A stretch of DNA of 44,728 bases from Pirellulales bacterium (GCA_035533075.1 DATLUO010000272.1:1-44728); one strand, 5' to 3'; positions 19,903 to 43,170 are shown, counted from the first letter of the stretch. Numbers and translations: made by a program. Notes: a model not told the origin generated them from the sequence alone.

Positions 19903-20343
19903 ATGATGACGACCGACGCAGAGGAACTCGTCAACGGCCTGCCGCTCCCGTCGGCCTTGGTCGAAGCAATCCAAACTGGACGATGGGTGGCTCCTTTACT
20001 CCACAAGCTTGAAGCGGTTTTTCCGCTGGCAGCCGATGAGGGCGAGCCGATTTGTCACCCGGCGTTCTTCGATTTGGACGGGATGCAACGGGAAAACGAC
20101 GGCTGGAGCGAAGAGACGCTGCCGTCGTATTTGGGCGAAAAGGATGACAAAGTTCAGCCTGGCGATATCGACCCTAGTCAATCCATCGTCATCGCCGACC
20201 TTGGGCCCGATCGGCTTGTTGCGCTGGACTATCGCGTATCGGACGAGAATCCGCGTGTCGTTTATCTTACCGGCAACCAACAGCCCCGGTGGGTCGAGGC
20301 TGCTCCGAACGTCGAGAGTTTAATGCGCCTCTTGGGGCTATGA
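19903..20343 (+). CDS. Possible SMI1/KNR4-like (SUKH) protein
   Basis: This 146-aa soluble protein ends IVIADLGPDRLVALDYR, then PRVVYLTGNQQPRWVEAAPN and VESLMRLLGL. The order (a strand with ADLG, a strand with LALDY, then a helix ending LxxLL) resembles SUKH proteins, a fold common among immunity proteins. The N-terminal half (LPLPSALVEAIQTGRW) is less typical. The start ATGATG at 19903 has only a weak Shine-Dalgarno. It follows the DUF2442 gene by 29 nt. No toxin partner is recognisable here. A solitary SUKH-like protein could be an immunity protein or simply a ligand-binding protein. The family assignment is tentative; the gene itself looks real. Confidence 0.6.
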   Translation: MMTTDAEELVNGLPLPSALVEAIQTGRWVAPLLHKLEAVFPLAADEGEPICHPAFFDLDGMQRENDGWSEETLPSYLGEKDDKVQPGDIDPSQSIVIADLGPDRLVALDYRVSDENPRVVYLTGNQQPRWVEAAPNVESLMRLLGL

Positions 20344-20624: not shown

Positions 20625-23327
20625 ATGTCCATCACACACGTCCACAACGGTCCCCAGCTTCCTGAAACTCTGCGGGTGCAGCTTCTCGATTTCCGTCGCC
20701 GCGTGTGGTCGATCAAGACCGCCGAAGCGCTGGCTATGGCCGGTTTTGGTTTGCTGATAATGTACCTGGCGGTGTTTGTCGGCGATCGCTTTGCCGATAC
20801 GCCGGCTTGGGTGCGAGCGGTCATGCTCATGGCGGCCTTGGCCGTGTCGGGCATCGTGCCTCTGTATGCCTATCGCTGGATCTGGCGACGTCGACAGCTT
20901 CCGCAGTTGGCACGGTTGTTGAGCCGCAAGCATCCCGACATCGGCGATCAACTGCTGGGCATCATCGAGCTGGTGGAAGACAAGGACGAACAGGTGCGCT
21001 CACGGGCATTGTGCGAAGCGGCCATCGTGCAGGTCGCCCAACAGGCGTCGGGCCACGACTTCCGCCATGCCGTGCCCAAGCCGCGGCATCGCCAGTGGAG
21101 TTGGGCCTTGGCGGCGCCGGCAATGTTGGCACTCTTGGCCGCGGCCATCGCACCCGCGGCGGCCGGCAACGCCTGGCTGCGGTTCCTGGTCCCCTGGCGA
21201 AATACTCCGCGTTACACGTTCGCGGCCGTCGCAGCGGTGCCCGATCGAATGGTCGTACCGCACGGCGAGCCGTTCACCTTCGCTGTGAAACTGGCCGAGC
21301 AATCGCGCTGGCGTCCGGACGAGGCGACGGCCCGCTACGGCGAACAATCGCCGATTGCGGCGTCGCTGGCGGAGGGCGGCTACCGCTTCGATGTGCCGGC
21401 GCAGATCGACGGCGCCTGGCTGACGCTGCGCGTGGGCGACGCTTCACATCGCGTGCGCGTCGAGCCGACGTTGCGGCCTGAGTTGACGATGGTCGAAGCC
21501 CGCGTGAAGTTGCCCGATTATTTAGGCCGGCCCGGAGCGATCAAAAAAGACGTTCGCGGCGGAACGTTGTCGGTGGTGAAAGACAGCACCGTCGGCGTGA
21601 TCGCCACGGCGAACCGCGAGTTGGCCGGTGCGACAGCAACCAGTACACTAGCCCGAAGCGCAAGCGAGGCGGTCGACACCTCGCTGGCGCTTCGGGTTGG
21701 TGTGGACAGATTCTCGTTCGCGGCGCCTGAAATGGGCCTCAGCGAATCGCAGCAAGTCGAGCTACGCTGGCAAGACCACGACGGCCTGACCGGCCTGGCG
21801 CCGTTCGTGCTTTCGATCGAGGCCCGCGACGACGATCCGCCCACGGTCGCCTGTCAGAACCTGCCGCGGCTGAAGGTAGTGCTCGACAGCGAGCAGTTGA
21901 GCTTTGTGGCCATGGCGCAGGATGACTTCGGCGTGAAGCAAGTCGGCATCGAGTGGCGCGGCTTGCCCGACGAAGACCGGCCGGGACGGACGCCCGCCGA
22001 GGGCGAGCGCGTATTGTCCGCCGGCGGTCCCGACCGCGAGCTGCTGGAAGCGGCCGGCGTGTTCTGCGCCAAGGCGCTGGGCATCGAGCCGCAGGCGATC
22101 GAGCTGCGGGTATATGTGGAAGACTATTTGCCGGGCCGCGAGCGGGTCTATTCGCCCCCCTACACGCTATTTGTGCTGAACGCCGAGCAGCACGCCGCCT
22201 GGCTGGCGGAGCAGCTCGACCGCTGGCACCATCACTCGCTCGAAGTCCGCGACCGCGAGTTGCAGCTCTACGAGGCCAACAAGGAGCTGCGTGACTTGCC
22301 GGCCGGCGAACTCGACCAGCCCGAAACTCGTAAGCGCATCGAGCGGCAGGCCTCGGCCGAACGGGCCAACGGCGCCCGGCTTTCGCGGCTGGTCTCGGCG
22401 GGCGAAGACCTGGTGAGCCAGGCCGCCAAGAACCCCGATTTCGGCGTGGGCCATCTGGAAAAGTGGGCCGAGATGCTGCAGATACTCAAAGACATTTCGG
22501 CCAACCGCATGCCTTCGGTGGCCGAACTGCTGGCCGACGCTTCGGCCGCGCCGGCGGAGAGCAAGCCTTCCGGCGAGAAGCAGTCGTCCGCTCCGCAGGT
22601 CGGCCGGAACCGCGACCCAGGCACGAAGCCTGGTGGTGAAGGCAAGAAAGACGAGCCGCCCAAGCCGCCGGTTCCTTCCATCGTCGACCGTGAAAGCTCG
22701 CAGCAACCCAAAGACAAGGACGACAATGAGGAGTCGCCGCCGCCAGGCGGCGGTTCGCCTAAGTTCACGCTGCCGGTGACCACGTTGGCGGCGGGCAAAT
22801 CGAAGGGCGGCTCCTGCCCGGCTGCGAAAAAAGTCGACGAGGCGGTGCGGCAGCAGGAGGACTTGCTGGCCGAGTTCGCCAAGGTGGCCGACGAGCTGAA
22901 CCGCATTCTGGCGAATCTCGAAGGAAGCACCTTCCTCAAGCGGCTGAAGGCGGCGTCGCGCAAGGAGCTGGGAGTGGCCGAGGATCTGACGCAGCGGATC
23001 ACGGGCGACTTCGGCGTGCCGGCGAACCGGGCCTCGGAGCAGGCCCGCGAGCTGTTGCCCAAGATCGGCGAAAGCCAGGTCAAGCTGGCCGACAACGTGG
23101 GCACGATCATGGACGACATGAAAGCCTACTATGAGCGGCGGCGGATGACGAAGTTCAAGAACGTGCTCGACGAGATGGAAAAGGTCGAAGTCGTGGGCCG
23201 GCTGCGGCAGGTGAGCGACGACCTGCCGCGCGAGTCGGGCCTGTCCATCGCCCAGTGCGAGTTCTGGTCCGACACGCTCGACCGCTGGGCGGAGGACCTG
23301 GTCGATCCCGCGTCGGGCGGCACGTGA
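20625..23327 (+). CDS. DUF4175-like membrane protein, N-terminal 900 aa up to an in-frame UGA
   Basis: Two N-terminal membrane segments (AMAGFGLLIMYLAVFVGDRF and VMLMAALAVSGIVPLYAY) precede a positively charged stretch and LARLLSRKHPDIGDQLLGII. A third hydrophobic segment (ALAAPAMLALLAAAIAPAA) follows. Beta-sandwich repeats come next (PDRMVVPHGEPFTFAVKL, VEARVKLPDYLGRPGA), then a coiled-coil-rich region, a proline/lysine linker (residues about 640-715) and another helical domain. The overall plan resembles DUF4175 proteins. A UGA at 23325-23327 ends this frame, but the same frame continues open to 23939 with related helical sequence. The natural product may therefore be about 1,104 positions long by readthrough, or the gene may be broken. 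A palindromic element lies in frame at 21650-21698. Confidence 0.82.
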   Translation: MSITHVHNGPQLPETLRVQLLDFRRRVWSIKTAEALAMAGFGLLIMYLAVFVGDRFADTPAWVRAVMLMAALAVSGIVPLYAYRWIWRRRQLPQLARLLSRKHPDIGDQLLGIIELVEDKDEQVRSRALCEAAIVQVAQQASGHDFRHAVPKPRHRQWSWALAAPAMLALLAAAIAPAAAGNAWLRFLVPWRNTPRYTFAAVAAVPDRMVVPHGEPFTFAVKLAEQSRWRPDEATARYGEQSPIAASLAEGGYRFDVPAQIDGAWLTLRVGDASHRVRVEPTLRPELTMVEARVKLPDYLGRPGAIKKDVRGGTLSVVKDSTVGVIATANRELAGATATSTLARSASEAVDTSLALRVGVDRFSFAAPEMGLSESQQVELRWQDHDGLTGLAPFVLSIEARDDDPPTVACQNLPRLKVVLDSEQLSFVAMAQDDFGVKQVGIEWRGLPDEDRPGRTPAEGERVLSAGGPDRELLEAAGVFCAKALGIEPQAIELRVYVEDYLPGRERVYSPPYTLFVLNAEQHAAWLAEQLDRWHHHSLEVRDRELQLYEANKELRDLPAGELDQPETRKRIERQASAERANGARLSRLVSAGEDLVSQAAKNPDFGVGHLEKWAEMLQILKDISANRMPSVAELLADASAAPAESKPSGEKQSSAPQVGRNRDPGTKPGGEGKKDEPPKPPVPSIVDRESSQQPKDKDDNEESPPPGGGSPKFTLPVTTLAAGKSKGGSCPAAKKVDEAVRQQEDLLAEFAKVADELNRILANLEGSTFLKRLKAASRKELGVAEDLTQRITGDFGVPANRASEQARELLPKIGESQVKLADNVGTIMDDMKAYYERRRMTKFKNVLDEMEKVEVVGRLRQVSDDLPRESGLSIAQCEFWSDTLDRWAEDLVDPASGGT
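21650..21698. repeat. Palindromic element inside the DUF4175-like coding region
   Basis: Arms 21650-21669 and 21679-21698 match at 18 of 20 bases around a 9-nt loop. The arm core CCCGAAGCGC is translated in frame to peptide LARSASEAVDTSLALRVG. Unlike flanking text, it lies between two beta-sandwich segments, so it looks like a tolerated in-frame insertion. Confidence 0.65.
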
Positions 23328-23329
23328 CC

Positions 23330-23360
23330 GGGCGGCAAATCGGCCGGCAGTTTGCCGCCC
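23330..23360 (+). other. Stem-loop two bases downstream of an in-frame UGA
   Basis: GGGCGGCAAA at 23330-23339 pairs exactly with TTTGCCGCCC at 23351-23360 around an 11-nt loop. It begins 2 nt after the UGA (23325-23327). No T-run follows, so it is not an intrinsic terminator. Its position would suit a readthrough-stimulating or SECIS-like structure, but no SECIS consensus is claimed. Confidence 0.7.
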
Positions 23361-23939
23361 TCGGTCGTGTTGGAAGTGATGCAGATTCTGGAAGCCGAAA
23401 TCGCCCTGCGTGAAGAGACCCGCGTGTCCGAGCAGTCGCGGCCCGCGATGGCCGCCGACAAGTACGCCGCCGACGCCGAAAAGCTCGCCGCCACGCAACG
23501 GGAGTTGCGCGGGCGCGTCGACGCCGCCGTGAAGCGGATCGGCGAGTTGCCCGACGCCGCCGGCAATTTTGGCGGAGAGATGGGATTGTTGCAGATGGTC
23601 AGCGGCGTGATGGGGGAAGCCGCGGAGATTCTCAAGCGGCCCGACACCGGCCCGCCGGCCATTGCGGCCGAGACGGAGGTGATCGAGTTGCTGTTGCGGG
23701 CCAAGCGGTGCAACCCGAAGTCGGGCGGCGGCGGCGGCGGCACGCCCGGCGGCGGCGGCGCGGAAGATCCGGCCCAGCAACCGGCCTTGGCGCTGTTGGG
23801 CAGCGGCGCCAACGAAAAGGCGCGCCCCGACGAGCGCGACGTGCCGCAGGCCGTCGGCCAGACCGACCGCACCTTGCCTGAAGAGTTCCGCGCGGGTCTG
23901 GACGAGTATTTCAATCGTTTGGAGAGATCTCGAGAATAA
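23352..23939 (+). CDS. C-terminal continuation of the DUF4175-like protein after the UGA
   Basis: This stretch is in the same frame as 20625-23327; codons resume directly after the UGA as PGGKSAGSLPPSVVLEVMQ, with 203 aa before the TAA at 23937-23939. The sequence is helical (EIALREETRVSEQ, KYAADAEKLAATQRELRG), followed by a glycine-rich linker (GGGGGGTPGGGG) and a charged helical end (LPEEFRAGLDEYFNRLERS). The first candidate start is TTG at 23352, which lies inside the stem-loop and lacks a Shine-Dalgarno, so independent translation is unlikely. Interrupted gene, readthrough product, selenoprotein or sequencing error are all open. Confidence 0.72.
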   Translation: MPPSVVLEVMQILEAEIALREETRVSEQSRPAMAADKYAADAEKLAATQRELRGRVDAAVKRIGELPDAAGNFGGEMGLLQMVSGVMGEAAEILKRPDTGPPAIAAETEVIELLLRAKRCNPKSGGGGGGTPGGGGAEDPAQQPALALLGSGANEKARPDERDVPQAVGQTDRTLPEEFRAGLDEYFNRLERSRE

Positions 23940-24073: not shown

Positions 24074-25762
24074 ATGCTAAAAAGCCGACTCTTTCGTGGT
24101 GAGAAGCCGCAAGGCCGGCGCAGCGACATGATCGGCAGACACGCGGCGTGCCTGACTGTGTTTCTGGCCCTCTTGGCGCCCGCAGGCGGCGTCGAAGCGC
24201 AATCGCCCGGTAGCGCGCCGCAAGGCGATTCCGGCGTCATCGACGACAACGATCTCGGCCAAGTCAATATAGGCTTGATTGCCAACCTGCCGGCCAGCGA
24301 GAGGATGCAGCCCGAGCCCTTGCGCAACGTGCTGTCCCGAGAAGGCGAGTTCATGGCCAAAGTCGGCGAGCTGTCGTCTGAAGAGGTCGAATCGTTGCTG
24401 GGCGAAGGTGAAAAGGCCCTGATACTCCACGGAGGCCGTCTTGCCGACGGTGAAATGAGGTTCGCCGGAACTCGCGGCGTGATCGCCTTCGACGGCCGTT
24501 CCATGACGTTCAAGGAGCCGCCCAACCGGAACGCGCGTCGTGTCTTGGCGGTCGTATTGAAGCGCATCTCGCCCAGGGCGCGGGAAAGATTTGACGCCGA
24601 GAGTGAGCGGCTCGAAGCGCGCCGAAGGCATGCGGCCGCTGTTGTACAGGTCGCCGAGTTGGATGAGGCCCTGTTCCTGTCGAGCGAACAGCGGGAGAAA
24701 CTGCGCGAGATTCTTTCCGCGGGACGCGGGGTTCCGTGGTGGCCGATGAACGAGTCGGCGGTCCATTTCCGACTGCCACAGAAAAGCCTGATCGCCGCGG
24801 GCGGCCTGGGGTGCTTCGTCGTTCCCGAGGCGGAATTGTCGACCGTCTCGCGGCTCTGGCAGTTGGCGTGCTACGGAAAACTGCGCCATCCGATGCAAGA
24901 AGAGGTCGTCATCGAACAACTCGTTCGTCGGCCGGCGGCGGATGCGCCGGCCCTACGGCCAGGTATGTGGCCGGTGGTGGCCGTAGGCGCGAAACTGCGT
25001 GCGCGGCGGGAGGCCGTCGACGAACATGGCGTCAGGCATCGACCAGATTTGCGACAGCGGCTCGAAACCCACTTATCGAGGTTGGTCGAAGACGTGGCGC
25101 TAAGCTGCGGTCTGACGGAGAGTGAGCGCGGCAAGCTTTTGTTGGCCGGCAAGCTCGACATCCTCGCCCTTCGCGAGCGCGCGCCGCGGGAGGAATTGCC
25201 CGAAGGGGAAATGGTATTTCAGACGGTGGCCCGGGTGCCCGCCACAGGCCCGCGCTTGCCGCCGGCGATTTTCGACGACGCGGGTTCGGCTTTTCAAAAG
25301 GAGTTCGAACACCGGCTCTCGGACCAGCAGAAAGGGCGGCTGGCCACCGCGTGGCGCGAGCGGCGCGACTTTCAGCGACAGGCCTTGGCAGAAGCGGTAG
25401 TGGTCGGTTTCGAGCGTTCGGCCGCGCTCACTTCGGCGCAGTGCGAGAAGCTGTCGTCGGCGCTCAACGAGGCGCTGGCCACCGGTGACGAGGACACGGC
25501 GCGGCTGACACCAGCCGGTCGGGCCGCCGCGAGCGACTGGCAACTCAAGTGCCTGCATCGCATCGCGCAACTCCCCGCCGAGACGCTGCAACCCTTGTTC
25601 TTCGACTCTCAATGGCCCGCCGCTGGGCGGCAACAAGGGCGGTTAGCCGAAGCGGCGCGACGGATAGAAGCCCAGGCGGGGGCGGGCGCCAAGATACGGG
25701 TCGCGGATACCCAGGGGAACGTAATAGAATTCGACGCCCTTCAAATCGACGAGAACCAATGA
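24074..25762 (+). CDS. Paralog 1 of a five-gene family: secreted LTxxQ-like helical protein
   Basis: This 562-aa protein has a signal peptide (ACLTVFLALLAPAGGVEAQ), preceded by about 18 basic residues; ATG at 24128 is a shorter alternative start. The family blocks are visible in order: LDEALFLSSEQREKL (about 197), CGLTESERGKLLLAGKLDI (about 346), FERSAALTSAQCEKL (about 444) and QLPAETLQPLFFDSQW (about 498). Each block has the pattern of a helix ending in LTxxQ or a variant. A linker near residues 285-325 is variable and contains a 9-bp inverted repeat in DNA (24952-24960 and 24979-24987). The stop overlaps the next start by ATGA. The family is uncharacterised; LTxxQ helices recall Spy/CpxP chaperones, but this is only a resemblance. 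Confidence 0.83.
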   Translation: MLKSRLFRGEKPQGRRSDMIGRHAACLTVFLALLAPAGGVEAQSPGSAPQGDSGVIDDNDLGQVNIGLIANLPASERMQPEPLRNVLSREGEFMAKVGELSSEEVESLLGEGEKALILHGGRLADGEMRFAGTRGVIAFDGRSMTFKEPPNRNARRVLAVVLKRISPRARERFDAESERLEARRRHAAAVVQVAELDEALFLSSEQREKLREILSAGRGVPWWPMNESAVHFRLPQKSLIAAGGLGCFVVPEAELSTVSRLWQLACYGKLRHPMQEEVVIEQLVRRPAADAPALRPGMWPVVAVGAKLRARREAVDEHGVRHRPDLRQRLETHLSRLVEDVALSCGLTESERGKLLLAGKLDILALRERAPREELPEGEMVFQTVARVPATGPRLPPAIFDDAGSAFQKEFEHRLSDQQKGRLATAWRERRDFQRQALAEAVVVGFERSAALTSAQCEKLSSALNEALATGDEDTARLTPAGRAAASDWQLKCLHRIAQLPAETLQPLFFDSQWPAAGRQQGRLAEAARRIEAQAGAGAKIRVADTQGNVIEFDALQIDENQ

Positions 25763-27534
25763 GTCGCGCTGCGTGCTCTTCAACGTCGGAGGCGATCTCG
25801 CTTGCGGGCGCCACCCGCGCCTTTAGGGCATCGGCGTTCTTATCGGCGCTCGCCGCTAAAAAGGCAGGACGATCTCTAAATGCAAAGCTCGTGGCAAACC
25901 GACCACTCTTGATCGTTGCGGCATGGCTCGCCGCAGCTTTATTCCATGTTTCAGTGGCTCAGGCCCACGTCGCGCCCCGCGCGGTGCGAATTCCGGTGGA
26001 ACGGTCCGATGAGGCGTTGGCCGCGCAGCTCAAGGGCTATATCGATCCGTTGCGGGAGGCCCTGCCGTTGGAGTTGCGATTCGTGAAAAACGTCGGCCAG
26101 ATCAGCGACGAGGAAATCGCGGAGTTGCGGGCCACGGCCGAGGAGGAGATTGAAATCATCTCGCGGCAAACGGCCGCGGTGCTGCGGGACTACTGGAAAG
26201 GCAATCGACGCCAGAAGGTGGTGGCCGTCGATGGCAAGCGTATGATCGTTCCGGCGAACCTGGACCAGTGGATCGTCGAAGCGCCCGGCGCGGTGACGCA
26301 TCAGATCGTGGCCGCGGCACTTAAGGCGAAATGGCCCGAAGCTTTGGACAAGTTAGACGCCGAGCGCGAGCGGCTCAATGGGCGGAGAAAACGGGCCGCG
26401 GTTCTGGCCGAGGTTGCTCTACTCGACGAAGCGTTGCTTTTGTCCGGCCAGCAGCGCAACGATCTCTGCCAGCGGCTCGAGGCGATCGGAGCGGACGCGT
26501 TACGTCGTCCGGCAATCGTAGCACCGCTCATCGACCCGGCGGTCCAACGACTTCATACATCGCTGGCCGCTTGGCAACTCGATACCTTTGCGACCTCCGA
26601 AGCCGCGTTGGCGGCGGCCTTGCGTCCGCCCCAGTTGGCGGTTTTGCAAGAGCTTGAACAGCCACGGCAGCAGGAAATGGTCCTTGTTCAGCAAGCGGCG
26701 CCGCAGCGCGCCCGCGTGGCCCCGCCCGCGCCGGCAGTTGCGCCGCTCGATGCGAACCGGCCGCGGCGAATCGCCATCGACCAGCAAGCGGCGCGCGAGC
26801 TCGCGGTCGCGCAGCAGGAGGCGATGGGCCGACTGCAAGTTGTGCAGCGCCGCGTGGTGCGGCGCGGCCCATCGACCAATGACCTGCAAGCAAAATTGAT
26901 CCGTTACGTCGAGCGCCTGGTGGACGACATCGACGCCGCCTGTGAGCTGACGGAATCGCAGCGCGAAAAGTTCCTGCTGGCCGGCAAACTCGATATCGAG
27001 CGCTGGCGCGAGGAGTCGGCGCGAACCGGCGAAAAGCTCGCGCCCGGCGAGCCGGTGGTGGCGCGGCAGGTGCGAGTTGTAGGCGCCGGCCCGTCTCCGC
27101 AAATTGCGATCTTTCACGCGGCGGCGTCGTATTTCCAACGGGCGTGCCGCACTCGCTTGGACGGCGAACAGAGGGAGAAGCTAGCCGCTGCCCGGCGCGC
27201 GCGGCGCGAGTTCCAGCGGCGCTCGTTGGTCGAGTCCGCCGTGGCCGGCTTCGAGCGCGCGGCCGCGCTTACCCCGCAGCAATGCGAGCAACTGTCGTCG
27301 ACGATCGAGGCCGCGTTGGCGGAGAGCGATCTGGACGCCGACGATTGGCGCGTGCAAACCGTCAGTGCGATCGCCCAGTTGCCAGCCGAGAAGCTGGCGA
27401 TGATTTTCGACGATGTCCAGCAGGCCGCCGCATCACGGCATCAAGTGCAAATCGCCGAGGCACTGCGGCAGTTCGAAGCTCGAACGGCGAACGCCGCCGC
27501 TCCGGCGGTGATTATCGGCGGCGGGGTTTTCTAG
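25759..27534 (+). CDS. Paralog 2 of the secreted LTxxQ-like family
   Basis: With the ATG at 25759 (ATGA overlap with paralog 1) the protein is 591 aa. A longer upstream frame overlaps paralog 1 and is rejected. The hydrophobic stretch RPLLIVAAWLAAALFHVSVA (about residues 48-67) is the export signal, preceded by a long basic, serine/alanine-rich leader. The shared blocks are LDEALLLSGQQRNDL (about 220), CELTESQREKFLLAGKLDI (about 396), FERAAALTPQQCEQL (about 497) and QLPAEKLAMIFDDVQQ (about 539). A proline/alanine-rich linker (VAPPAPAVAPL) divides the domains. No catalytic motif is visible. Paralog 3 follows after 38 nt. Confidence 0.83.
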   Translation: MSRAACSSTSEAISLAGATRAFRASAFLSALAAKKAGRSLNAKLVANRPLLIVAAWLAAALFHVSVAQAHVAPRAVRIPVERSDEALAAQLKGYIDPLREALPLELRFVKNVGQISDEEIAELRATAEEEIEIISRQTAAVLRDYWKGNRRQKVVAVDGKRMIVPANLDQWIVEAPGAVTHQIVAAALKAKWPEALDKLDAERERLNGRRKRAAVLAEVALLDEALLLSGQQRNDLCQRLEAIGADALRRPAIVAPLIDPAVQRLHTSLAAWQLDTFATSEAALAAALRPPQLAVLQELEQPRQQEMVLVQQAAPQRARVAPPAPAVAPLDANRPRRIAIDQQAARELAVAQQEAMGRLQVVQRRVVRRGPSTNDLQAKLIRYVERLVDDIDAACELTESQREKFLLAGKLDIERWREESARTGEKLAPGEPVVARQVRVVGAGPSPQIAIFHAAASYFQRACRTRLDGEQREKLAAARRARREFQRRSLVESAVAGFERAAALTPQQCEQLSSTIEAALAESDLDADDWRVQTVSAIAQLPAEKLAMIFDDVQQAAASRHQVQIAEALRQFEARTANAAAPAVIIGGGVF

Positions 27535-27572
27535 GTGCCGAAACTATGCGCTCGAATCGAAAATAAACTGGG

Positions 27573-28952
27573 ATGAGATTGATCGTGCTCGCTTCCACCT
27601 TCTTAATCCTGCTCGGCGCAGTGGCTTTCGCCGAGCCACGTGCCGGCGACGAATTCGGCGAGCGCGTCAGAGATGTCTTGGTTCGCGAGATGTGGTTCAT
27701 GGCCACCGTCGCAGAGCTCTCGCCACAGGAAACCGAGGCGCTGACCCTGGAAGCTCAACGAGCGCTCGATCGCTGGGGCGCCCGTATTGAGAGCACCTCC
27801 CTGGGCGCATCGTTGCGGCGCGAATTGACGCCCCTGCTCAAGAGCATCTCGCGCCAGGGGTGGGAGAAGTACGACGCCGAGCGCGAACGGCTCGAGGAAC
27901 GGCGCGCGCATGCGACGATCGTGGCGCAAGTGGCCGAGTACGACGAAGCGCTGCTCTTCACAAGCGAGCAGCGCGACAAGCTCTGCGCAGAACTGGCCGA
28001 AGCGGCCCGCGGAATCGGCTGGCAGACCCGAGTGACCGGGCCGCCGCTCATTCCGGCGCGCCGATTTCCGCCGGAGATATCCGCCGGCGGACTGGGGCGC
28101 TTCGAGCCGGCGGAGTCCAGGTTGGCCGTCGTTCTTACGCCGGGCCAGCTTGCGGCGTACAAGCAGTTTAGCCATGCGATCGGCCAGCAAATCATCGTGG
28201 CGGCGCCGGGTGCCCAGCAGGCCGCAGCGGCCGTTCGTCCTAAGTTTGACGACCAGCACCCGCGGCTGAAGCTACTCTTGGAGCGGTTCGTCGATGCCGC
28301 CGACGCCGTCTGCAACTTGGATGACTTGCAACGTCAAAAGCTGCTGATCGCAGGCCAAATCGACATCGACCAATTGCGGGAGCGGTACGGCGCGATCGAA
28401 TCGCAGGAGGGCGACGATCCCATCCGGTGCGTCGCGAGACTTGGCGCTCTGACGGATGCCGCGCGCACCATGTTCGACGACCCCGCTTCGAAGTTCCCGC
28501 GGACGCTTCGCTCACGGCTGACCGACGAACAAAAAGCAAAGCTCGCGGTCGCCGAGCGCGAGCGACACGCCTTCCGCTGCCAGGCGCTTGTGCAAGCGGT
28601 AGTCGTCGGCTTCGAGCGGTCGGCGGCCCTGACGTCGGCGCAATGCGCAGAGTTAGAGCGCACGTTCGACGAAGCCGTTGCCGACTGCCCTATGTCGCCG
28701 CAGTGGCAGATCCCATGGCTGCGAACGATGACCGGCCTGCCGCATGAGAAGCTGCGCCCGATCTTGGCCGATCAGCAATGGCCGGCCTTCGAGCGTCAGT
28801 TGGCACAACTCAAGGAAGTCGCAAGACGGCTCGAAGAGGAGTTTGAGAAGAAGGTAGGCGCGCTCCGCGGCGTGAAAATCATGGCGGTTGACAAGGATGG
28901 AAAGGCCGTAGCGGAACTGCGGGCCGACGAGATAAGGCTGAATTTGGACTGA
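27573..28952 (+). CDS. Paralog 3 of the secreted LTxxQ-like family (shortest)
   Basis: This 459-aa protein is the minimal family member: a signal peptide (RLIVLASTFLILLGAVAFA) followed directly by the shared domain. Family blocks are YDEALLFTSEQRDKL (about 122), CNLDDLQRQKLLIAGQIDI (about 248), FERSAALTSAQCAEL (about 346) and GLPHEKLRPILADQQW (about 387). The helix before them, VREMWFMATVAELSPQETE, matches EGEFMAKVGELSSEE in paralog 1 and DVEFMSTIGELTSAQRE in paralog 4. The stop is 2 nt before the ATG of paralog 4. Its compactness makes it the best reference for the family domain boundaries. Confidence 0.84.
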   Translation: MRLIVLASTFLILLGAVAFAEPRAGDEFGERVRDVLVREMWFMATVAELSPQETEALTLEAQRALDRWGARIESTSLGASLRRELTPLLKSISRQGWEKYDAERERLEERRAHATIVAQVAEYDEALLFTSEQRDKLCAELAEAARGIGWQTRVTGPPLIPARRFPPEISAGGLGRFEPAESRLAVVLTPGQLAAYKQFSHAIGQQIIVAAPGAQQAAAAVRPKFDDQHPRLKLLLERFVDAADAVCNLDDLQRQKLLIAGQIDIDQLRERYGAIESQEGDDPIRCVARLGALTDAARTMFDDPASKFPRTLRSRLTDEQKAKLAVAERERHAFRCQALVQAVVVGFERSAALTSAQCAELERTFDEAVADCPMSPQWQIPWLRTMTGLPHEKLRPILADQQWPAFERQLAQLKEVARRLEEEFEKKVGALRGVKIMAVDKDGKAVAELRADEIRLNLD

Positions 28953-28954
28953 CC

Positions 28955-30694
28955 ATGCGAATTGCGTTTCGATTGTTGCTCTGCGTCGCGCTGTCATCGC
29001 CGGCACTGCAGTCGGACCGCGCATCGGCACAGGATAAAGAGCCTTTCGGTCCGTCACAAAACAAGTTTGTCGGCATCGGAATCCAGTCGAAACGAGAGCA
29101 CGGCGCCCTTGTGGTCATGACCGTGCTGCCATTCAGCCCCGCTCAGCGGGCCGGCTTGCGGCCGGGCGACCGGATTACGGCGGTTGAAGGCCGTTCCGTC
29201 GCTGAACGTTCCACGGACCAGACCGCCAAAGCTTTCCAAGGCAAAGAAGGCTCGTTCGTCAGCGTGACCGCCGTCACCGCCGGCCAACAACCGCGGCAAG
29301 TGCGAATCCGGCGCGAGCTCATCGAGGCACGGAGATTCCATTCGCCGGCGGCGGCACAGGCGCACATCATGGCCGCCGCCCGGCGGCAAGAGGCATTGAT
29401 GGCCCGGGTGCAGGGGCCTTTGCGCGAGGCGCTCCGGCGAGACGTCGAGTTTATGTCGACCATCGGCGAACTCACCTCCGCGCAACGTGAATCGTTGCGC
29501 GCGGACGCCGAGAAAGCGATCGAGCGCCTCGTCGCTCGGGTCTCCGTGGAGCGCGAGGGCGGCGTTCGCCGCTTCATCGTCGATGTCAACGGTCAAAGGG
29601 AACTGCGCGCCGAGTACGTCGATACGACGGAGCAAGTCGCCCGACAACTACTGACGCCGCTGCTGAAGACCATCTCGCCGGATGCATCGGAAAAGGTCGA
29701 CGCCGAATGCGGCCGAGTGCGGCAGCGGAGCAAGCAGGCCGAGGTTTTGGCCCAAATCGCCGCCTTCGACGAAGCATTGCTGCTGACGCGCGAACAGCGG
29801 GAAATGCTTGTCAGCCTGCTTGGCGCGCGCTGGACCGACGTGTGGCGGGGGCACCTCACCGACCGCACGGCAACGGATCCCATCTCGCTCTGCCGGTCCG
29901 CCGTCGGCGCGATGGACTTGTTCACGATTCCCGACGTCGAATTAAAGGCGATCTTGACCTCTAGCCAAGTGGCGACCTTCAAGCTGGTGCAACTGCCAAC
30001 CAGAGAGGTGTCGGTGTTCGTCCAGGACGGGCAGCAGCCGGCGGCACGCCGCTTCGTGCGCCGCGGGCTGCCCCTCGAAGAGGAACGCCTGCGGCTCAAA
30101 TTGCTGCTCGAGAGGTTGGTCGATGACGCCGCGGCGCACGGCGGCCTGGGCGAAGAGCAAAAGCAAAAGCTGCTCACGGCGGGCAAGCTCGACCTCGATG
30201 CGTACTTCAAGCGGCAGGCGGCGCTGGAGGAAAAACCGGCGGACGGACGGGCAGTCATTGTGCCGCACGAACAAATTGCGGGCGTGAAGGCGCGATTGCC
30301 GACGATCTTCGCCGACGCCGACTCGACGTTCCAGCGGATATTTCAGAAACGCCTGTCGTCGGAACAACGAGCAAAGATCGCCGAGGCCGACCGCGAGCGC
30401 GGCCGTTTCCACCGGCAGGCGGTACTGGGCGTTTTGATAGTCGCGTTGGCCGAGCGCGCCTTGTTGACCGACAATCAGGCCGGGCGACTGCAGACGCGGC
30501 TTGCCGATTCGCTCCCGGAATCAGACAATGCCCAAGACCTCGCCGGCTGGCGGCAGGCGACATTGAAAAAACTCCGCCAGTTGCGGCCGGAGGCGATCGG
30601 GCCGCTGTTGGACGATTGGCAACGGCCCGCGGCGAGGGAATACTTGACGGAGCTGGCCGATTCGGCGTTGATCGACATCGAAGGTGCGCCATGA
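28955..30694 (+). CDS. Paralog 4: secreted PDZ domain fused to the LTxxQ-like domain
   Basis: This 579-aa protein starts with a signal peptide (RIAFRLLLCVALSSPALQS). A PDZ domain occupies about residues 32-115: VGIGIQSKREHGALVVMTVL, then the ligand-groove helix region SPAQRAGLRPGDRITAVEGR. The family domain follows: DVEFMSTIGELTSAQRESL (about 165), FDEALLLTREQREML (about 270), GLGEEQKQKLLTAGKLDL (about 396) and QLRPEAIGPLLDDWQR (about 543). PDZ domains bind C-terminal peptides, so this member may tether or select a partner. No protease domain is present. The stop overlaps paralog 5's ATG as ATGA. Confidence 0.86.
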   Translation: MRIAFRLLLCVALSSPALQSDRASAQDKEPFGPSQNKFVGIGIQSKREHGALVVMTVLPFSPAQRAGLRPGDRITAVEGRSVAERSTDQTAKAFQGKEGSFVSVTAVTAGQQPRQVRIRRELIEARRFHSPAAAQAHIMAAARRQEALMARVQGPLREALRRDVEFMSTIGELTSAQRESLRADAEKAIERLVARVSVEREGGVRRFIVDVNGQRELRAEYVDTTEQVARQLLTPLLKTISPDASEKVDAECGRVRQRSKQAEVLAQIAAFDEALLLTREQREMLVSLLGARWTDVWRGHLTDRTATDPISLCRSAVGAMDLFTIPDVELKAILTSSQVATFKLVQLPTREVSVFVQDGQQPAARRFVRRGLPLEEERLRLKLLLERLVDDAAAHGGLGEEQKQKLLTAGKLDLDAYFKRQAALEEKPADGRAVIVPHEQIAGVKARLPTIFADADSTFQRIFQKRLSSEQRAKIAEADRERGRFHRQAVLGVLIVALAERALLTDNQAGRLQTRLADSLPESDNAQDLAGWRQATLKKLRQLRPEAIGPLLDDWQRPAAREYLTELADSALIDIEGAP

Positions 30695-33600
30695 AGCAAC
30701 TGATTTGTAACCGACTTCCGCTTTTTGACCGTAGGGTGGGACCAGCGAGCTTGCGAGCGCCGGCCCACCATCGGCGCGACGCCGAAACAATGGTGGGCCG
30801 GCGCTCGCAAGCTCGCTGGTCCCACCCTACGTCCCTCGCGAAGGCAGTCCGAAGCACAATCGCAACGCTCGTTGCCTTTGCGCTCGCCTCTTGCCTGGCG
30901 GCGGCCGACCCACCCAGGTCGTTCGATCAAGCTGCAGTCCTCAAACGGGCCGCGGTCGCGTTCAAGGCGGCCGATCATGATGGCGACAACAAGGTTACAC
31001 GCGATGAGTTTCTCGCTTCCTACCGCCAAGTCGATCGCGATGAGCGAATCAGGTTGTTTAATGAATTCGATTTCGAAGGTGACGGCGTCTTTGAATTCGA
31101 TTTCGAAGCCGACGGCACGTTGGACCGCAATGAATTCCTGAAGCTTGTCTCGCCCACGGACGAGCGGCCGGCGATTCCTGACCCGATGGCGGAGTTGGAG
31201 CAGGCCGCCTTGGCGAAGTGGCAGGCAGAACTCGCCGTCGCTGACCGCGACGGCGACGGAGCTTTGGCCCGCGATGAATGGCCAGGCAAGCGAATCGCCG
31301 CACAAGTTCCGGCTGTGGCCGAAGTCACCTTCGAGCAATGGGACCGAAATCACGATGCCAAAGTCGACGTCGCCGACGCGAAGTGGCTGTTGGAGGTCGC
31401 CTATGGACTGACCCAGTTGGATGGCCGCGCCGTTCGCACGCCGACAGGCCGAGTCTTTAGCTGGTACTTTTTCCGCAGTTTGGACAGCAACCACGATGGA
31501 ACGCTGTCGCGCAATGAATTCGTCGATCGATTGTTCTTCGAAAAGGAAAAGAACGCGATTCTGTTCGACAAGCTCGACGCAGATGGCGACCGGCAGCTCA
31601 CCGCCGAGGAAACGCGGAAGTTTCTCTGGCACGATACTCTTTCCAACTTTTTCACATTTGACCGAAACCTCGACGGATTTCTGACGACGGATGAATTCAT
31701 CGCCATCGGCTGGGGCAAGAATCTCGGTCTGCGAAGCGTGCGCGCGTTCGATGGCGACGGCGACGGACGAGTCTCGTTCTCGGAGTTTCGGCACACGACG
31801 TTTGCCAACCAGGCTTCCGATTGGCTGCGGCCGCGGCGAGACGCGGACGAAGATGGCCGTTTGTCTTGGAAGGAATTCTACATTGAAATGCCCCCGCTTC
31901 TACTCGCGCAGAGCCGCTATTTTTTCGACCATTTCGATCTCGATCGCGATGGTTTTCTGTCGGCGGCGGAATTCGATTTCGAAGCGGACTTTGCCAAAGC
32001 GGACGCCGACCACAATGGACAGTTGACTCTAGACGAATTCCTCGCAACGTACGCCGAGGCCGACCGCGGCGAAGGCGCGCGGCGGTTCTTGGTGTTCGAT
32101 TTCGACGGCAACCGCAAGTTGGACGGAGACGAATACCACAGCTTCTCCGCGCCCGTCGACGAGCGGGGCAACGTGCCGGATCCGATGGCCGAATTCGCCG
32201 ACGCCGCCCTGGCCAAATGGGAAGCGATCGCCGTCGCGGCCGACCGCAATCGCGACCTTGCCTTGTCCACGGCCGAATGGCCGGCGAAACAAATCGCGAC
32301 GGAGATTCCCGACTTGGCGGACGTGCCGTTCGTGCTCTGGGACCGTGGTGATGACGGCAAAGTCGACCGCGCCGACGCGCGATGGCTGGTTGACGTGGCC
32401 TATGGCCTGGCGCAGCTCGACGGCCGGCCGTTGCGGACGACAACCGGCCGGATGTTCGCCTGGTATTTCTTTCGCCGTCACGACGCCGACCGCAACGACC
32501 GGCTGGCACGCAACGAATTCATGGCGGGCTACCACCCCGCCAACGTCAACACCGCCGAGCTGTTCGAGAAGCTCGACGTCGACGGCGACGCGCAGTTAAC
32601 GCAGCGGGAGACCTGGTCGGTGTTTTGTCACGACACCATTGCCGCCTTTCTCGACTATGACCGAAACCGCGACGGCTATCTGACCGCCGACGAAGTTCGG
32701 GCCATTGGCTGGGGAGGATACCTGGCCCGCCGCACTGTGCCGGTGTTTGACGACGACCGCGACGGCAAGCTTTCGTTCCGCGAATTCCGCCTGACGAACT
32801 TCGCCAACCAGGCTTCCGACTGGTGGCAGCTCAAAGACCTGGACCACGACGGCCGAATCGCCTGGCACGAGTTCTATCGAGAGAAGCCGCCGCTTTTAAT
32901 CGCCCAAAGCCGCTTCTATTTCGGCCGCTACGATCGCAACCACGACGGCTTCCTCTCAGCCCTGGAGTTTCCCAGCGAAGCCGATCCGGCGCACGGGCAG
33001 GTTCTGGCCAATGCCGATATGCTCGAGCGCGTGCTTCCCCTGGAAGTGCAATTCGCAAAACGTATCTGCCGGTTGACGAACGACGATGCGGCCGTGCTCG
33101 AACGAGACGGCTATTCCGCCATTGAGCGGCTGGTGGAACAATCGCCCAGGGCGGCCCGAAAGAATCAAACGAGTCTCCCCGGGGCTGGCACCGCGGGCCC
33201 CTACTCCGTGGCCATGCCGGCCAGGACGGGCACTGATCTCGCGATCGTGCGGTCGCCGCATCTGCTGCTGCGCCGGGAGCTGGTGGAGTCGATGCGCGGA
33301 CGGTTGAAAAAAGGCGGCGACACGCTCAACGGCTTTCGCGTGGCGGCAGAAGACTGCCAAACACTCGACAGCGAGCGCGTGCGGGCCGAGAAGCGCCGCC
33401 GCCAGGCCGCGATTCTGGCCCACGTCGCCGTGCTCGATGAGGCGTTGTTGTTGTCGGCGAGGCAGCGAAAGGATCTGTGCGACCTGCTCGGCCAAGACGC
33501 CGCCGACGCCTGGTGGCGCCCGATCAATTCGGGCACGATCATCGACCCCACGGTCGAATGGTTTTTCGCTTCGGCTTCCGGTGGGGGCTTCTACGGGCTG

Positions 33601-34515
33601 TTTGTGCCCGATGTCGAGTTAAAAAAGAGACTGACCTCGCGGCAGTTGGCGGCGCTCACGGAGCTCCAGCGGCCGTATGAGCAGGAGATCGTCATCGTCC
33701 AGCAGGCGGCGCCCAAACCGGGCGGCGCGGCCGTGCCCGCGGCAGTGGGAAGGGTGGCGGGTGGCGCCGTCGTACCGCGCGCGGCGGCAGCGCCGGGGCT
33801 CATCGCAGGTGGACAAGTGGCGGCGCCGCGTGCGGTCAGGCGCATCGTGCGTCGCGGGCCGACGGTCGAAGAGCAACAGCGGCGGTTGGCGCAATACGTC
33901 GAACAACGATTGGACGACATCGAGGCGGCTTGCGGCCTGAGCAAGCCTCAGCGCGACAAGTTGTCGCTGGCCGCCAGGCTCGACGTGGCGCGCTGGCGAG
34001 ATCAATCGTCCGCGCCCGATGAGAAGTTGAACGACGGCGAAGAGTTGGTTGTGCGAAAGCAGCAAGTCCGGGGCGGCGCTGCGCCGTTGCCGTTAGCGAT
34101 CTTAAGCGATGAAAACTCCTATTTTCGAAAATCGCTGCAAACCCGGCTGACCGACGAGCAGAAGCACATGCTGGCCGAGGCCAACGGCCAACGGCGCGAG
34201 TTCCAGCGTCAGGCGGTAGTCGTCGCCGTCGTCGCAGGCTTCGAGCGGGCGGCCTCGCTGGACTCGGCGCAGTGCGATGGGCTGGCCACGCTGTTGAACG
34301 ATTCGCTCTCCGACGCTGAGGCCGGCGGCACCGCCGAATTTGTCCGGCGCGTCGCGCAGTTGCCGTTCGCGCGTTTGCAGGCGATTTTCTTGGACATTCA
34401 GCTTCCCGCCTTCCAACAGCACTACGGCGAATTGTCCGGCGCGCTGCGGCAGTTCGAAGTGCAACAAGGCAACCAGGTTTTCCGCGCGGCCGCTGGGGCG
34501 GGGCCCGGGTTTTGA
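30691..34515 (+). CDS. Paralog 5: secreted protein with 20 EF-hand-like loops and the LTxxQ-like domain
   Basis: This 1,274-aa protein begins at ATG 30691, overlapping the previous stop. Residues about 14-47 are encoded by an in-frame 100-bp palindrome; the hydrophobic export segment (TIATLVAFALASCLAAADPP) follows. Residues about 85-770 hold two tandem blocks of ten EF-hand-like loops, e.g. DHDGDNKVTRDEF, DADGDRQLTAEET and DRNLDGFLTTDEF in block 1, and DADHNGQLTLDEF, DVDGDAQLTQRET and DRNRDGYLTADEV in block 2. The blocks match loop for loop. The C-terminal 500 residues carry the family domain: LDEALLLSARQRKDL (about 914), CGLSKPQRDKLSLAARLDV (about 1082), FERAASLDSAQCDGL (about 1182) and QLPFARLQAIFLDIQL (about 1222). 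Calcium-binding is likely; function is unknown. Confidence 0.86.
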   Translation: MKQLICNRLPLFDRRVGPASLRAPAHHRRDAETMVGRRSQARWSHPTSLAKAVRSTIATLVAFALASCLAAADPPRSFDQAAVLKRAAVAFKAADHDGDNKVTRDEFLASYRQVDRDERIRLFNEFDFEGDGVFEFDFEADGTLDRNEFLKLVSPTDERPAIPDPMAELEQAALAKWQAELAVADRDGDGALARDEWPGKRIAAQVPAVAEVTFEQWDRNHDAKVDVADAKWLLEVAYGLTQLDGRAVRTPTGRVFSWYFFRSLDSNHDGTLSRNEFVDRLFFEKEKNAILFDKLDADGDRQLTAEETRKFLWHDTLSNFFTFDRNLDGFLTTDEFIAIGWGKNLGLRSVRAFDGDGDGRVSFSEFRHTTFANQASDWLRPRRDADEDGRLSWKEFYIEMPPLLLAQSRYFFDHFDLDRDGFLSAAEFDFEADFAKADADHNGQLTLDEFLATYAEADRGEGARRFLVFDFDGNRKLDGDEYHSFSAPVDERGNVPDPMAEFADAALAKWEAIAVAADRNRDLALSTAEWPAKQIATEIPDLADVPFVLWDRGDDGKVDRADARWLVDVAYGLAQLDGRPLRTTTGRMFAWYFFRRHDADRNDRLARNEFMAGYHPANVNTAELFEKLDVDGDAQLTQRETWSVFCHDTIAAFLDYDRNRDGYLTADEVRAIGWGGYLARRTVPVFDDDRDGKLSFREFRLTNFANQASDWWQLKDLDHDGRIAWHEFYREKPPLLIAQSRFYFGRYDRNHDGFLSALEFPSEADPAHGQVLANADMLERVLPLEVQFAKRICRLTNDDAAVLERDGYSAIERLVEQSPRAARKNQTSLPGAGTAGPYSVAMPARTGTDLAIVRSPHLLLRRELVESMRGRLKKGGDTLNGFRVAAEDCQTLDSERVRAEKRRRQAAILAHVAVLDEALLLSARQRKDLCDLLGQDAADAWWRPINSGTIIDPTVEWFFASASGGGFYGLFVPDVELKKRLTSRQLAALTELQRPYEQEIVIVQQAAPKPGGAAVPAAVGRVAGGAVVPRAAAAPGLIAGGQVAAPRAVRRIVRRGPTVEEQQRRLAQYVEQRLDDIEAACGLSKPQRDKLSLAARLDVARWRDQSSAPDEKLNDGEELVVRKQQVRGGAAPLPLAILSDENSYFRKSLQTRLTDEQKHMLAEANGQRREFQRQAVVVAVVAGFERAASLDSAQCDGLATLLNDSLSDAEAGGTAEFVRRVAQLPFARLQAIFLDIQLPAFQQHYGELSGALRQFEVQQGNQVFRAAAGAGPGF
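30731..30830. repeat. 100-bp palindromic element, full copy, in frame within a signal-peptide coding region
   Basis: Arms 30731-30771 and 30790-30830 are perfect 41-bp complements around an 18-nt loop. The element lies 40 bases after the paralog 5 ATG and is translated to residues ending ARWSHPT, immediately before the signal-peptide core. A second full copy, a half copy and a short variant lie at 35715, 13507 and 16137. An ATG inside the element (30790) could serve as an alternative start. Confidence 0.92.
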
Positions 34516-34522
34516 GTGTACC

Positions 34523-35656
34523 ATGAAACAAGCGATTTACACCCTGCGTGCGCTTTTTGGTGTCTCGATGTTCCACGCCGTGTCACGAAGCATACCGTCA
34601 ACAATTGCCCTGGCGGCCCTCACCGGCGTCGCACAGGCGCAACTGCCCGAATTGCGGCACGGCGGCGCGGTGCCGCACGAGGTGCGCGAGATCTACGACC
34701 ACGGCTTGCAGTATCTGGCCGCCAGCCAGGAAGCGGGCGGCGCCTGGACCCGCGGCAATATGCAGGGCCCGGCCATCACCGGCCTTTGCCTGATGACCTT
34801 CTTGGCCTCCGGCGAAGATCCGAACTTTGGGCCGTATAGCGCGCAGGTGCGCGCGGCGCTGCGCAGCATCATTGGCGCACAAGACACCGTCAGCGGCTGC
34901 ATCGGGTCGGGCAATATGTACGAGCACGGTTTCGCCATGCTGGCCCTGGCCGAAGCCTATGGCGCGGTGGACGATCACAATATGTGGAGCGCTTCGCCGG
35001 CCGGACGCGCGGTTTCGGTCTCGCGCGCCGCCGGCGCTGCCGCCAACCGCACGGTCGGGCAAGCGCTGGAACTGGCCGTGCGCTGTGCCCTGGCGTCGCA
35101 AAAGCAGAACCAATTGGGCGGCTGGCGCTATTCGCCCAACGCCCAGGACGCCGATACGTCGGTCAGCGGCGCCGTGCTGGTGGGACTGCTGGCCGCGCGC
35201 AACGCCGGCATCGAGGTGCCCGATCAGGCCATCGACCGGGCCTTGGCCTACTACCGGCAATCGACCGGGCCGGACGGCAGCGTGGGCTATGCGGGCGGAA
35301 TGGCCGGCGGACCGGGCGATTCGCTGGCCCGCTCCTCCATCGCCACGCTCGTCTACGCCGTCGCCCGGCGCAAAGACCTGAAGGAATACAAGGCCACCAT
35401 CGACTATCTCAAGCACGAGCGCGGCCAGGGGCGCAACCATAACGACGAATACACGTTTTATTACCAGGCCCAGGCGCTGTATCAGGGCGACCCCGACGCC
35501 TGGGAAAAATGGAACAAGGCCCAGATCCGCCGGCTGAAGCAATCGCAGCAGGCCGACGGCAGCTTTGCCTCGCAGTTCGGGCCGGCCTACGGCACGTCGA
35601 TGTCGCTGTTGGTGCTGGCCGTCAACTACCGCTTTTTGCCGATTTATGAACGATAG
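34523..35656 (+). CDS. Secreted alpha/alpha-toroid (prenyltransferase/squalene-oxidase repeat) protein
   Basis: This 377-aa protein has an export signal (SIPSTIALAALTGVAQAQ). Toroid repeats follow: GLQYLAASQEAGGAWTRGN, ALELAVRCALASQKQNQLGG, AIDRALAYYRQSTGPDGSVG, each with a helix ending in a glycine/tryptophan-rich QxxGGW-like turn. YQADGSFASQFGP-like sequence (SQQADGSFASQFGPAYGTS) closes the fold. The catalytic residues of true prenyltransferases or cyclases are not seen, and members of this type in planctomycetes are usually annotated only by fold. The ATG at 34523 is 8 nt after the paralog 5 stop; ATG at 34568 is an alternative. The stop overlaps the next gene by 11 nt, so co-translation is likely. 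Confidence 0.87.
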   Translation: MKQAIYTLRALFGVSMFHAVSRSIPSTIALAALTGVAQAQLPELRHGGAVPHEVREIYDHGLQYLAASQEAGGAWTRGNMQGPAITGLCLMTFLASGEDPNFGPYSAQVRAALRSIIGAQDTVSGCIGSGNMYEHGFAMLALAEAYGAVDDHNMWSASPAGRAVSVSRAAGAAANRTVGQALELAVRCALASQKQNQLGGWRYSPNAQDADTSVSGAVLVGLLAARNAGIEVPDQAIDRALAYYRQSTGPDGSVGYAGGMAGGPGDSLARSSIATLVYAVARRKDLKEYKATIDYLKHERGQGRNHNDEYTFYYQAQALYQGDPDAWEKWNKAQIRRLKQSQQADGSFASQFGPAYGTSMSLLVLAVNYRFLPIYER

Positions 35657-39994: not shown

Positions 39995-40184
39995 CGCTTG
40001 CTCTCCTCAACGGGACATCTGCACACTGCACATGTAAGTGTACTCAAGTCTGTACGAACGTCAATGGCCCGCGGTTCGGATGTTCGATGTTCGGACAAAC
40101 CGGGCCAATCGTTCTTGCCCGCTCCCGGCGACGGTGGTACAGTCCGCCGCCGCAAATCACCCCGCGCCGACTGGGAGGTCGTGG

Positions 40185-41787
40185 TTGCTCTTCAAATGGC
40201 CGATCCGCAAAAAGCTCTTCCTCTGCCTTGGTCTCCTGCTGGTCATGGTGGGAACCTTGGGCTGGGGGGGGATCTACGGGCTTTACGCCTATCGCAGTTT
40301 AGTGCGCAGTTTGGGCCGGCGCGTGCCCGAACTGCCGTTGGCGAATATTCTCAGCCAGCGCGTGGGCGATCTGCGGGTGGCCCTGAGCGACGACGCGCCG
40401 CTCGTCCACCAGGCGCAGACCGAGGGACAACGGGCGGTTTTTGAGATGCACGAGCCGCTGCTGCGCTATGCCCGGCAAGAGTTCGAGGCGGGCCTGGAGA
40501 ACGTCAAGATTTGCCTGAGCCAATACCGGCAGCAGCTTAACGACAACCCGGACCCGTCGGGCCAGATCGGCGACAGCCGGCAGGAATGGGAGAGCGTGCG
40601 GCAAATCGAGGTGCTCATCGAGCGGATGGACGCGACCATTCACGATCAGAACTGGCTGATCGACCAGCCGAAACGCGGCGCGCTGACCCACGACTTGGAG
40701 CAACTGCAGCTTCTGGCCGCCCGGCTTCCCACACACCTTTACAGCCGGATCAGCGAGTCGACGATCGAGGCCAAACGACAATACCGGAGGCTCTTGACCT
40801 TGACCTGGGCCACCAGTGGCGCGGCGGCCGTGCTGCTGGGACTCTTCGTTCACCTGTTTTACCACTGGGTCTTTCGACCGCTGCGGATTCTGATCAACGG
40901 TTCTCGCAAGGTGGCCCGCGGCCAATTCAACTACCGCATCCGCCTGCAAACGCACGACGAGATGTCGGAGCTGGCCGCCGCCATGAACGACATGACCGCG
41001 CGGTTTCAGGCCATCCGCGACGATCTCGACTGCCAGGTGAAGCAGCGGACCAAGCAAGTCGTGCGCAGCGAGCAGCTTGCCAGCGTCGGCTTTCTGGCCG
41101 CCGGCGTGGCCCATGAAATCAACAACCCCCTGGCCTCGATCGCCATGTGCGCCGAGTCGCTCGAAGGGCGAATGGCGGGTCTTGCCGAGCTCGCCGAGGG
41201 CGAACAAGAGGTGGTCCGCAAATACCTGCGGATGATCCAGACCGAAGCCTTCCGCTGCAAGGGGATCACCGAGCGGCTGCTCGACTTTTCCCGCATGGGC
41301 GAAGTCAAGCGGCTGCCGACCGAGTTGGGCGAGCTGGTGCAAGGCGTGATCGAAATGGTCCGCCACGTCGGCAAGTATCACGATGCGCACGTCGAGTTCG
41401 CGTCGGACGGTCCGGTCGTCGTCTCGGCCAATCCGCAGGAGGTCAAGCAGGTCGTGCTGAACCTGCTGGCCAACGCGCTCGACAGCCTCGATGCGGAAGG
41501 GACCGTCAGGGTGACGCTCGACCGCCGCGGCGGCGAGGCCGAGTTGGTCTTTGCCGACGACGGCTGCGGCATGACGCCGGAGGTCATGGAACACCTGTTC
41601 GAACCATTTTTCACGCGCCGCCGCGGCGGGCAGGGCACGGGGCTGGGCTTGTCGATCGTCTATCGCATCGTGGCCGACCACGAAGGGACGATCGACGCGC
41701 ATAGCGACGGGCCGAATCGCGGAACGACGTTCCGCGTGCGCCTGCCGCTGGCGTCCGCGGCCGGCCACTTACCGAAGGAGAAGAGCC

Positions 41788-41807
<20 letters not shown>
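40185..41807 (+). CDS. Membrane sensor histidine kinase (HAMP, HisKA, HATPase_c)
   Basis: I chose TTG at 40185, about 5 bases after GGGAGGT; this gives 540 aa starting with the basic leader and membrane segment (KWPIRKKLFLCLGLLLVMVG). A longer open frame upstream has no Shine-Dalgarno. A periplasmic sensor (about residues 40-205) and TM2 (LTWATSGAAAVLLGLFVHLF) precede HAMP. The H-box is GVAHEINNPLASI with H310. The N-box is NPQEVKQVVLNLLANALDSL, G1 is DDGCGM near 459, and G2 is GTGLGLSIVYRI near 484. It probably phosphorylates the sigma-54 regulator encoded directly downstream. The sensed signal is unknown. Confidence 0.92.
41776..41783 (+). promoter_or_regulatory. Shine-Dalgarno of the response regulator, pointing to a non-canonical ATC start
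   Basis: AGGAGAAG sits 4-5 bases before ATC at 41788 and inside the 3' end of the kinase gene. No ATG, GTG or TTG occurs in this frame between 41701 and 41844. Confidence 0.55.

Positions 41808-43170
<1,363 letters not shown>

Follow-up and report, generated by a model that had tools for sequence, protein, structure and literature searches.

Among the described systems closest to the locus reported here are the Bacteroides aerotolerance (Bat) operons (MoxR-DUF58-BatA/BatB...) and the catalogued prokaryotic selenoproteins. Deletion of the bat genes in Leptospira biflexa gave no oxidative-stress phenotype (PMC3557215), and selenoproteins are already known from planctomycetes (PMC4807772). We analysed a 44,728-nucleotide (nt) stretch of DNA from a Pirellulales bacterium (GCA_035533075.1 DATLUO010000272.1:1-44728; hereafter "the window"), in which an original prediction, made from the sequence alone, had pointed to five adjacent genes encoding secreted paralogs of an uncharacterised family. 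We found in this array, whose genes we designated P1 to P5, an unusual form of a conserved, uncharacterised operon component, one that has undergone fusion and maximal amplification. Its upstream neighbour, a membrane protein gene we designated SelX, is a more surprising discovery than the array itself. The original prediction had overlooked both the two-gene fusion nature of the P proteins and the apparently recoded UGA upstream of them.

The five genes are on the same strand, as predicted, and every pair of their products aligned by BlastP over 350-500 amino acids (aa) with E-values of 1e-30 to 1e-72, at 30-38% identity, within a common domain of ~460 aa. There were 44 invariant columns in a 537-column alignment, and by these alignments the likeness is far above chance. 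Besides the four sequence blocks noted originally, we saw a fifth, LRxxLxxExxFxxxVxxLS, at the start of the domain, and homology spans wider than the blocks. When a profile of the five proteins was searched against 57 relatives, 13 genomes gave matches, and there two separate neighbouring open reading frames (ORFs) usually shared the profile between them, one matching its N-terminal third and the other its C-terminal half. These separate genes, which we call N (~300 aa) and C (~280 aa), both encode secreted proteins and are followed directly downstream by a homolog of the window gene we call TC. The N and C profiles matched each other with an hhalign probability of 98.8% (E-value 9e-17). Since the two halves match separate adjacent ORFs and the N and C profiles are homologous, each P protein is, on sequence comparison, a fusion of two related modules, so that two mutually homologous proteins of ancient origin are joined in each of P1-P5. 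Both families are helical and previously undescribed, and they belong to the core of the operon described below. An AlphaFold2 model of P3 (114 homologs) showed two similar all-helical modules with a mean predicted local distance difference test score (pLDDT) of 84.8 and a predicted template modelling score of 0.84.

The shared domain had no match above cut-off in Pfam or NCBIfam, and neither PDB sequence searches nor fold searches of the P3 model produced a credible relative. Weak Pfam, NCBIfam and PDB sequence matches, for instance to PutA_N, DIM, NDC80 and interaptin, were below cut-offs and incoherent, and were set aside. Foldseek/VIA-align searches with the P3 model listed only helical-bundle matches, the best with a Z of 7.2, within the noise for helical models, and no Spy-like match was among those listed; such a lack of fold matches does not show the fold to be new.

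P1 (24074-25762, + strand, as are all five) is a secreted N-C fusion without an extra domain, its N half covering 24296-25012 and its C half 25013-25759, with an alternative start at ATG 24128. P2 (25759-27534), also a secreted fusion (with its N half at 26026-26844 and its C half at 26845-27531), starts at an ATG at 25759 that overlaps the P1 stop; GTG 25891 is another possible start, and the ORF-tool call at GTG 25549 was set aside as too long. P3 (27573-28952) is a minimal fusion, in which N occupies 27642-28226 and C 28227-28949, and P1-P3 had no Pfam domain beyond the shared region. P4 (28955-30694) adds an N-terminal PDZ domain at residues ~35-126 (Pfam PDZ_6, 48.7 bits against a cut-off of 27, E-value 6e-13), the nearest type being the S41 Ctp-type PDZ. 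P5 (30691-34515) adds a ~730-aa EF-hand region (Pfam EF-hand_1, 154 bits, E-value 6e-47, above cut-off). The Pfam matches thus agree with the originally described set of three proteins without an extra domain, one with PDZ and one with EF-hands; the 20 EF-hand-like loops claimed for P5 shrank to 11 canonical DxDxDG-type loops by a strict pattern and 14 by a relaxed one. By eye, the EF-hand region (30871-33060) looks like two long related halves, in which DPMAE... and TxTGRxFxWYFF recur ~330 aa apart, and this suggests an internal duplication. All five N termini look signal-peptide-like by eye. The junctions, described earlier as overlapping or nearly touching, measured a 4-nt ATGA overlap (P1/P2), 38 nt (P2/P3), 2 nt (P3/P4) and another 4-nt ATGA overlap (P4/P5), and the gaps at the ends of the array are 134 nt from SelX to P1 and 7 nt from P5 to the likely TC start. 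Promoter and terminator scans gave results no better than shuffled sequence.

The array is the sole site of the family in its own genome, which is 99% complete, and holds all its copies. Elsewhere, the C profile found matches within the order in 34 of 146 genomes, with limited search sensitivity, and within the phylum in at least 14 of 392; the latter search scored few candidates per genome, making its count a lower bound. A TC scan of named genomes yielded 80 loci, chiefly in Planctomycetota with a few in Verrucomicrobiota. N/C genes lay upstream of TC in 77 of these, and since the contigs of the other 3 begin at TC, all TC loci having upstream sequence carry N/C. Two N/C modules were present in 53 of the 80 loci and 3 to 8 in 21, so that the window, with 10 modules, has the largest array seen (the next largest has 8). 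The five window copies are monophyletic in both the N-module and the C-module trees (Shimodaira-Hasegawa-like approximate likelihood ratio test supports of 99 and 100, respectively). This window clade in both trees shows a single fusion event, followed by amplification in place to five N-C copies, and it supports the proposal of tandem duplication followed by gain of N-terminal modules; among the N/C loci, PDZ and EF-hand regions were found only on the window copies. Other fused N-C ORFs occur at three loci (L180, L198 and L211), and with P1-P5 they provide a gene-fusion argument for contact between N and C.

SelX (20625-23939, + strand), directly upstream of the N/C genes, is a ~1104-aa membrane protein when read across an in-frame UGA at 23325-23327 (+), our proposed selenocysteine (Sec) codon, and no Pfam or NCBIfam model matched it. 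The corresponding column is Cys or UGA in most homologous loci: of 93, it is UGA in 25 (the window and 24 others, among them L209, the complete genome of K23_9), Cys in 59 (TGC in 36 and TGT in 23) and G, S, N or E in 9. Other genes of the window, such as P1, end normally at a UGA, and the codon in SelX could in principle be an ordinary stop, separating two genes or marking a nonsense mutation; we consider this very improbable, since a codon in stop position at this column is always UGA, with UAA or UAG in 0 of the 93 loci, and the remaining loci mostly have Cys. The flanks are conserved (LVDPASGGT-U-PGGKSxGSLPPS), and at least 8 changes between U and C were counted on the SelX tree. At and after the UGA there is a hairpin (23326-23366, +) resembling a selenocysteine insertion sequence (SECIS), whose apical part, CGGCA-GUU-UGCCG at 23345-23357, is conserved. 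This apical hairpin, GGCAGUUUGCC, was present in 23 of 24 UGA genes and in 0 of 56 Cys genes although the SLPP protein motif is common to both, which indicates that synonymous sites are fixed where UGA is used. The pairs of the apical helix were 100% kept across the sequences, with a compensatory change at one position; the folding z-score was -3.2 for the window and weaker for the other sequences.

The Sec machinery also speaks against an ordinary stop. With genomes counted after removal of duplicates, SelB scored above its curated cut-off in 23 of 24 UGA genomes and in 14 of 46 others (Fisher 1e-7, kinship not corrected), and the single UGA genome without SelB carries a tRNA-Sec (77 bits). 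A clear tRNA-Sec (>60 bits; tRNA-Ser-sized cross-matches score ~42-53) was found in 19 of the 24, and the window's own genome has SelA (558 bits), SelB (371 bits), SelD (284 bits) and tRNA-Sec (62 bits). On this evidence, which is strong computational evidence but short of proof, we are highly confident that SelX would prove to be a selenoprotein, and by the same comparisons it very probably represents a previously uncatalogued family. An AlphaFold2 model of its C-terminal region was of fair quality (pLDDT 69.7) and put the Sec/Cys position in a low-confidence loop between helices. In the SelX homologs of one family, f7 (L110, L112, L116, L117, L119, L120 and L122), the Cys/Sec is replaced by G, E or N and the loop is glycine-rich. 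Genomes with UGA and those with Cys had arrays of similar size (p = 0.15 for a difference).

In relatives, the operon order is (DUF58-BatA-)VWA2-SelX-N-C-TC-TlpA, VWA2 being the second large gene after that of the BatA-domain protein. At three loci (L095, L098 and L199) the cluster includes a DUF58 gene and one for a protein with a BatA N-terminal domain, and the gene downstream of TC in relatives encodes a long protein with a terminal thioredoxin/redoxin domain. The window has VWA2, an inserted SUKH gene, SelX, P1-P5, TC and a TlpA-like gene. VWA2 (17144-19342, +) is labelled by position, its own Pfam matches being weak; it is 57% identical to the L199 copy, and its counterpart in relatives sits between BatA and SelX. 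TC (34523-35656, +) is a terpenoid-cyclase/prenyltransferase-like (alpha-toroid-like) repeat protein, 56-62% identical to its counterpart downstream of N/C in relatives. The TlpA-like protein (35565-38597, +, coordinates being ORF limits) has a C-terminal thioredoxin/redoxin domain. The cell-envelope setting suggested at the outset is thus upheld by the conservation of an operon that encodes BatA/DUF58/VWA proteins and others with thioredoxin domains.

A Cys residue directly precedes the first LTxxQ-like motif in 98 of 117 N modules and 96 of 161 C modules, in proteins with an overall Cys content of 0.6-0.7%. There is one such conserved Cys per module, and those of N and C are at corresponding places of the homologous modules. 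P5 is the only window copy with both (C793 and C1081); P1-P3 have kept the C-half Cys and lost that of the N half, and P4 has neither. Adjoining TC and having both residues, P5 may, by its sequence features, be the canonical copy. In the tandem C arrays of other loci (L191, L200, L148, L149 and L151) usually one or two copies have the Cys and the others have V, Y, F or A, which suggests a core copy accompanied by divergent accessory copies. Genomes with UGA show a weak excess of the N/C Cys (p = 0.004 and 0.05, kinship not corrected).

Taking these observations together, we lean, with little more than even confidence, towards a reading in which the tandem N-C fusions P1-P5 would serve in the periplasm as adaptor modules, within an envelope machine that is Bat-like and linked to redox chemistry. 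N and C would bind each other, acting in most planctomycetes as separate periplasmic subunits and in the window as units pre-assembled through fusion. P1-P4 would be repeated structural or adaptor modules, and the assembly, which would include TC, would be anchored by the membrane VWA/SelX proteins; the PDZ domain of P4 would bind peptide termini, the EF-hands of P5 would bind Ca2+, and the core copy would be P5, which adjoins TC and has both cysteines. Disulfide or selenenyl chemistry on the complex would fall to the TlpA-like protein and to SelX, with its Sec or Cys. All five proteins may form a single physical assembly in which the PDZ and EF-hand regions confer specificity. That SelX is both an uncatalogued selenoprotein and a physical partner of the N/C proteins, in a Sec/Cys redox relay with the TlpA-like protein, we put forward more tentatively, at somewhat less than even confidence.

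Several observations weigh against the adaptor reading or parts of it. Of the 5 window copies, 4 have lost the N-half Cys, and many extra C copies are without theirs; with the residue lost so often a redox role cannot be general. The f7 genomes, whose SelX is without Cys/Sec, still carry the N/C cysteines, so that a direct pairing of SelX with N/C is unsupported by covariation; loss of the SelX Cys and of the N/C Cys did not covary (p = 1). Neither BatA nor DUF58 adjoins the array, no homolog of either having been found in a search of the window. The majority of genomes of the order gave no N/C match (34 of 146 positive, as above, with the stated sensitivity). As PDB sequence and P3 fold searches matched the modules to no known fold, no homolog stands behind the proposed scaffold role. 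The five genes might instead encode functionally independent secreted proteins that are adjacent merely through tandem duplication, as would suit copies only 30-45% identical with differing N-terminal modules, and the common occurrence of tandem arrays of variable size among N/C loci. We think this unlikely, given that the junctions of the array overlap or touch and that the place of the N/C pair between SelX and TC is kept across Planctomycetota and Verrucomicrobiota, a constancy that argues for a shared process.

The original prediction had also remarked that the LTxxQ-like helices recall Spy/CpxP-type chaperones. P1-P5 are indeed secreted, all-helical judging by the AlphaFold2 model of P3, and have recurrent L[TS]xxQ-like helices, and a HisKA/HAMP histidine kinase and a sigma-54 response regulator lie downstream of the operon (40038-43170), so the P proteins could be imagined as periplasmic chaperones or stress sensors of the Spy/CpxP/ZraP type with a ZraSR-like partner. 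At the sequence level, however, we rejected this kinship: hhalign gave probabilities of 2.1% and 2.8% against E. coli Spy/CpxP/ZraP over 16-22 columns, in contrast to the 98.8% between N and C by the same method, and the LTXXQ Pfam family (PF07813) did not match P1-P5, the contig being absent from a permissive genome scan. Spy, CpxP and ZraP are single proteins of ~140-170 aa, whereas P1-P5 have two larger modules of ~200-270 aa and an unlike gene context. In the few relatives viewed, the kinase/sigma-54 pair was not recognised by eye at this place, and the flanks past the TlpA-like gene differ. We therefore regard a Spy/CpxP/ZraP-type role as improbable.

Some further features of the loci were noted in passing. 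The SUKH-1 (SMI1/KNR4) gene (19903-20343), between VWA2 and SelX, is not in the operon of the relatives viewed. A 102-bp palindromic dispersed repeat (30730-30831, +) forms an in-frame insertion near the 5' end of P5; this near-perfect palindrome of ~102 bp, CGTAGGGTGGGACCAGCGAGCTTGCGAGCGCCGGCCCACC..., recurs at 35713-35814 and in part at 13504-13546, and has about 40 genomic sites among scored candidates (697 first-look candidates). Two of the copies, one close to the 5' end of P5 and one close to that of the TlpA-like gene, are in frame and apparently extend these coding regions. In two metagenome-assembled genomes an STN-like (secretin/TonB short N-terminal) domain precedes the N genes (L175:223-1998 and L169:6990-8648), with Pfam E-values of 6e-5 and 9e-4, below cut-off. 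At L182:9538-12546, downstream of the TlpA-like gene, a partial C module is in frame with DUF1559 (SBP_bac_10) and DUF4350-like regions, and at several of the f7 loci listed above a TC gene lies upstream, not downstream, of an N-C pair.

With these results an orphan five-gene array becomes a defined, testable system: a conserved planctomycete and verrucomicrobial envelope operon that includes a documented fusion and amplification, and a probable selenoprotein gene that is cut in two if its UGA is read as a stop. It offers a handle on planctomycete envelope biology and on the function of Bat/VWA operons, so far resistant to genetics. Compared with catalogued prokaryotic selenoproteins, SelX shows the usual signs, with UGA alternating with Cys, a hairpin resembling a SECIS and a link to the Sec machinery; it differs in having no NCBIfam or Pfam model and no counterpart in the searched parts of a 2026 review of prokaryotic selenoprotein families, which there names neither planctomycetes nor a SelX-like membrane protein (PMC13188914). 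The likeness to Bat operons is that relatives of the window operon have DUF58, a BatA-domain gene and then VWA2 upstream of SelX-N-C-TC. We know of no description of SelX, N, C, TC or the TlpA-like protein as parts of Bat operons, and the present operon differs from these by the addition of all five, the window holding only its VWA2-SelX-P1..P5-TC-TlpA part.

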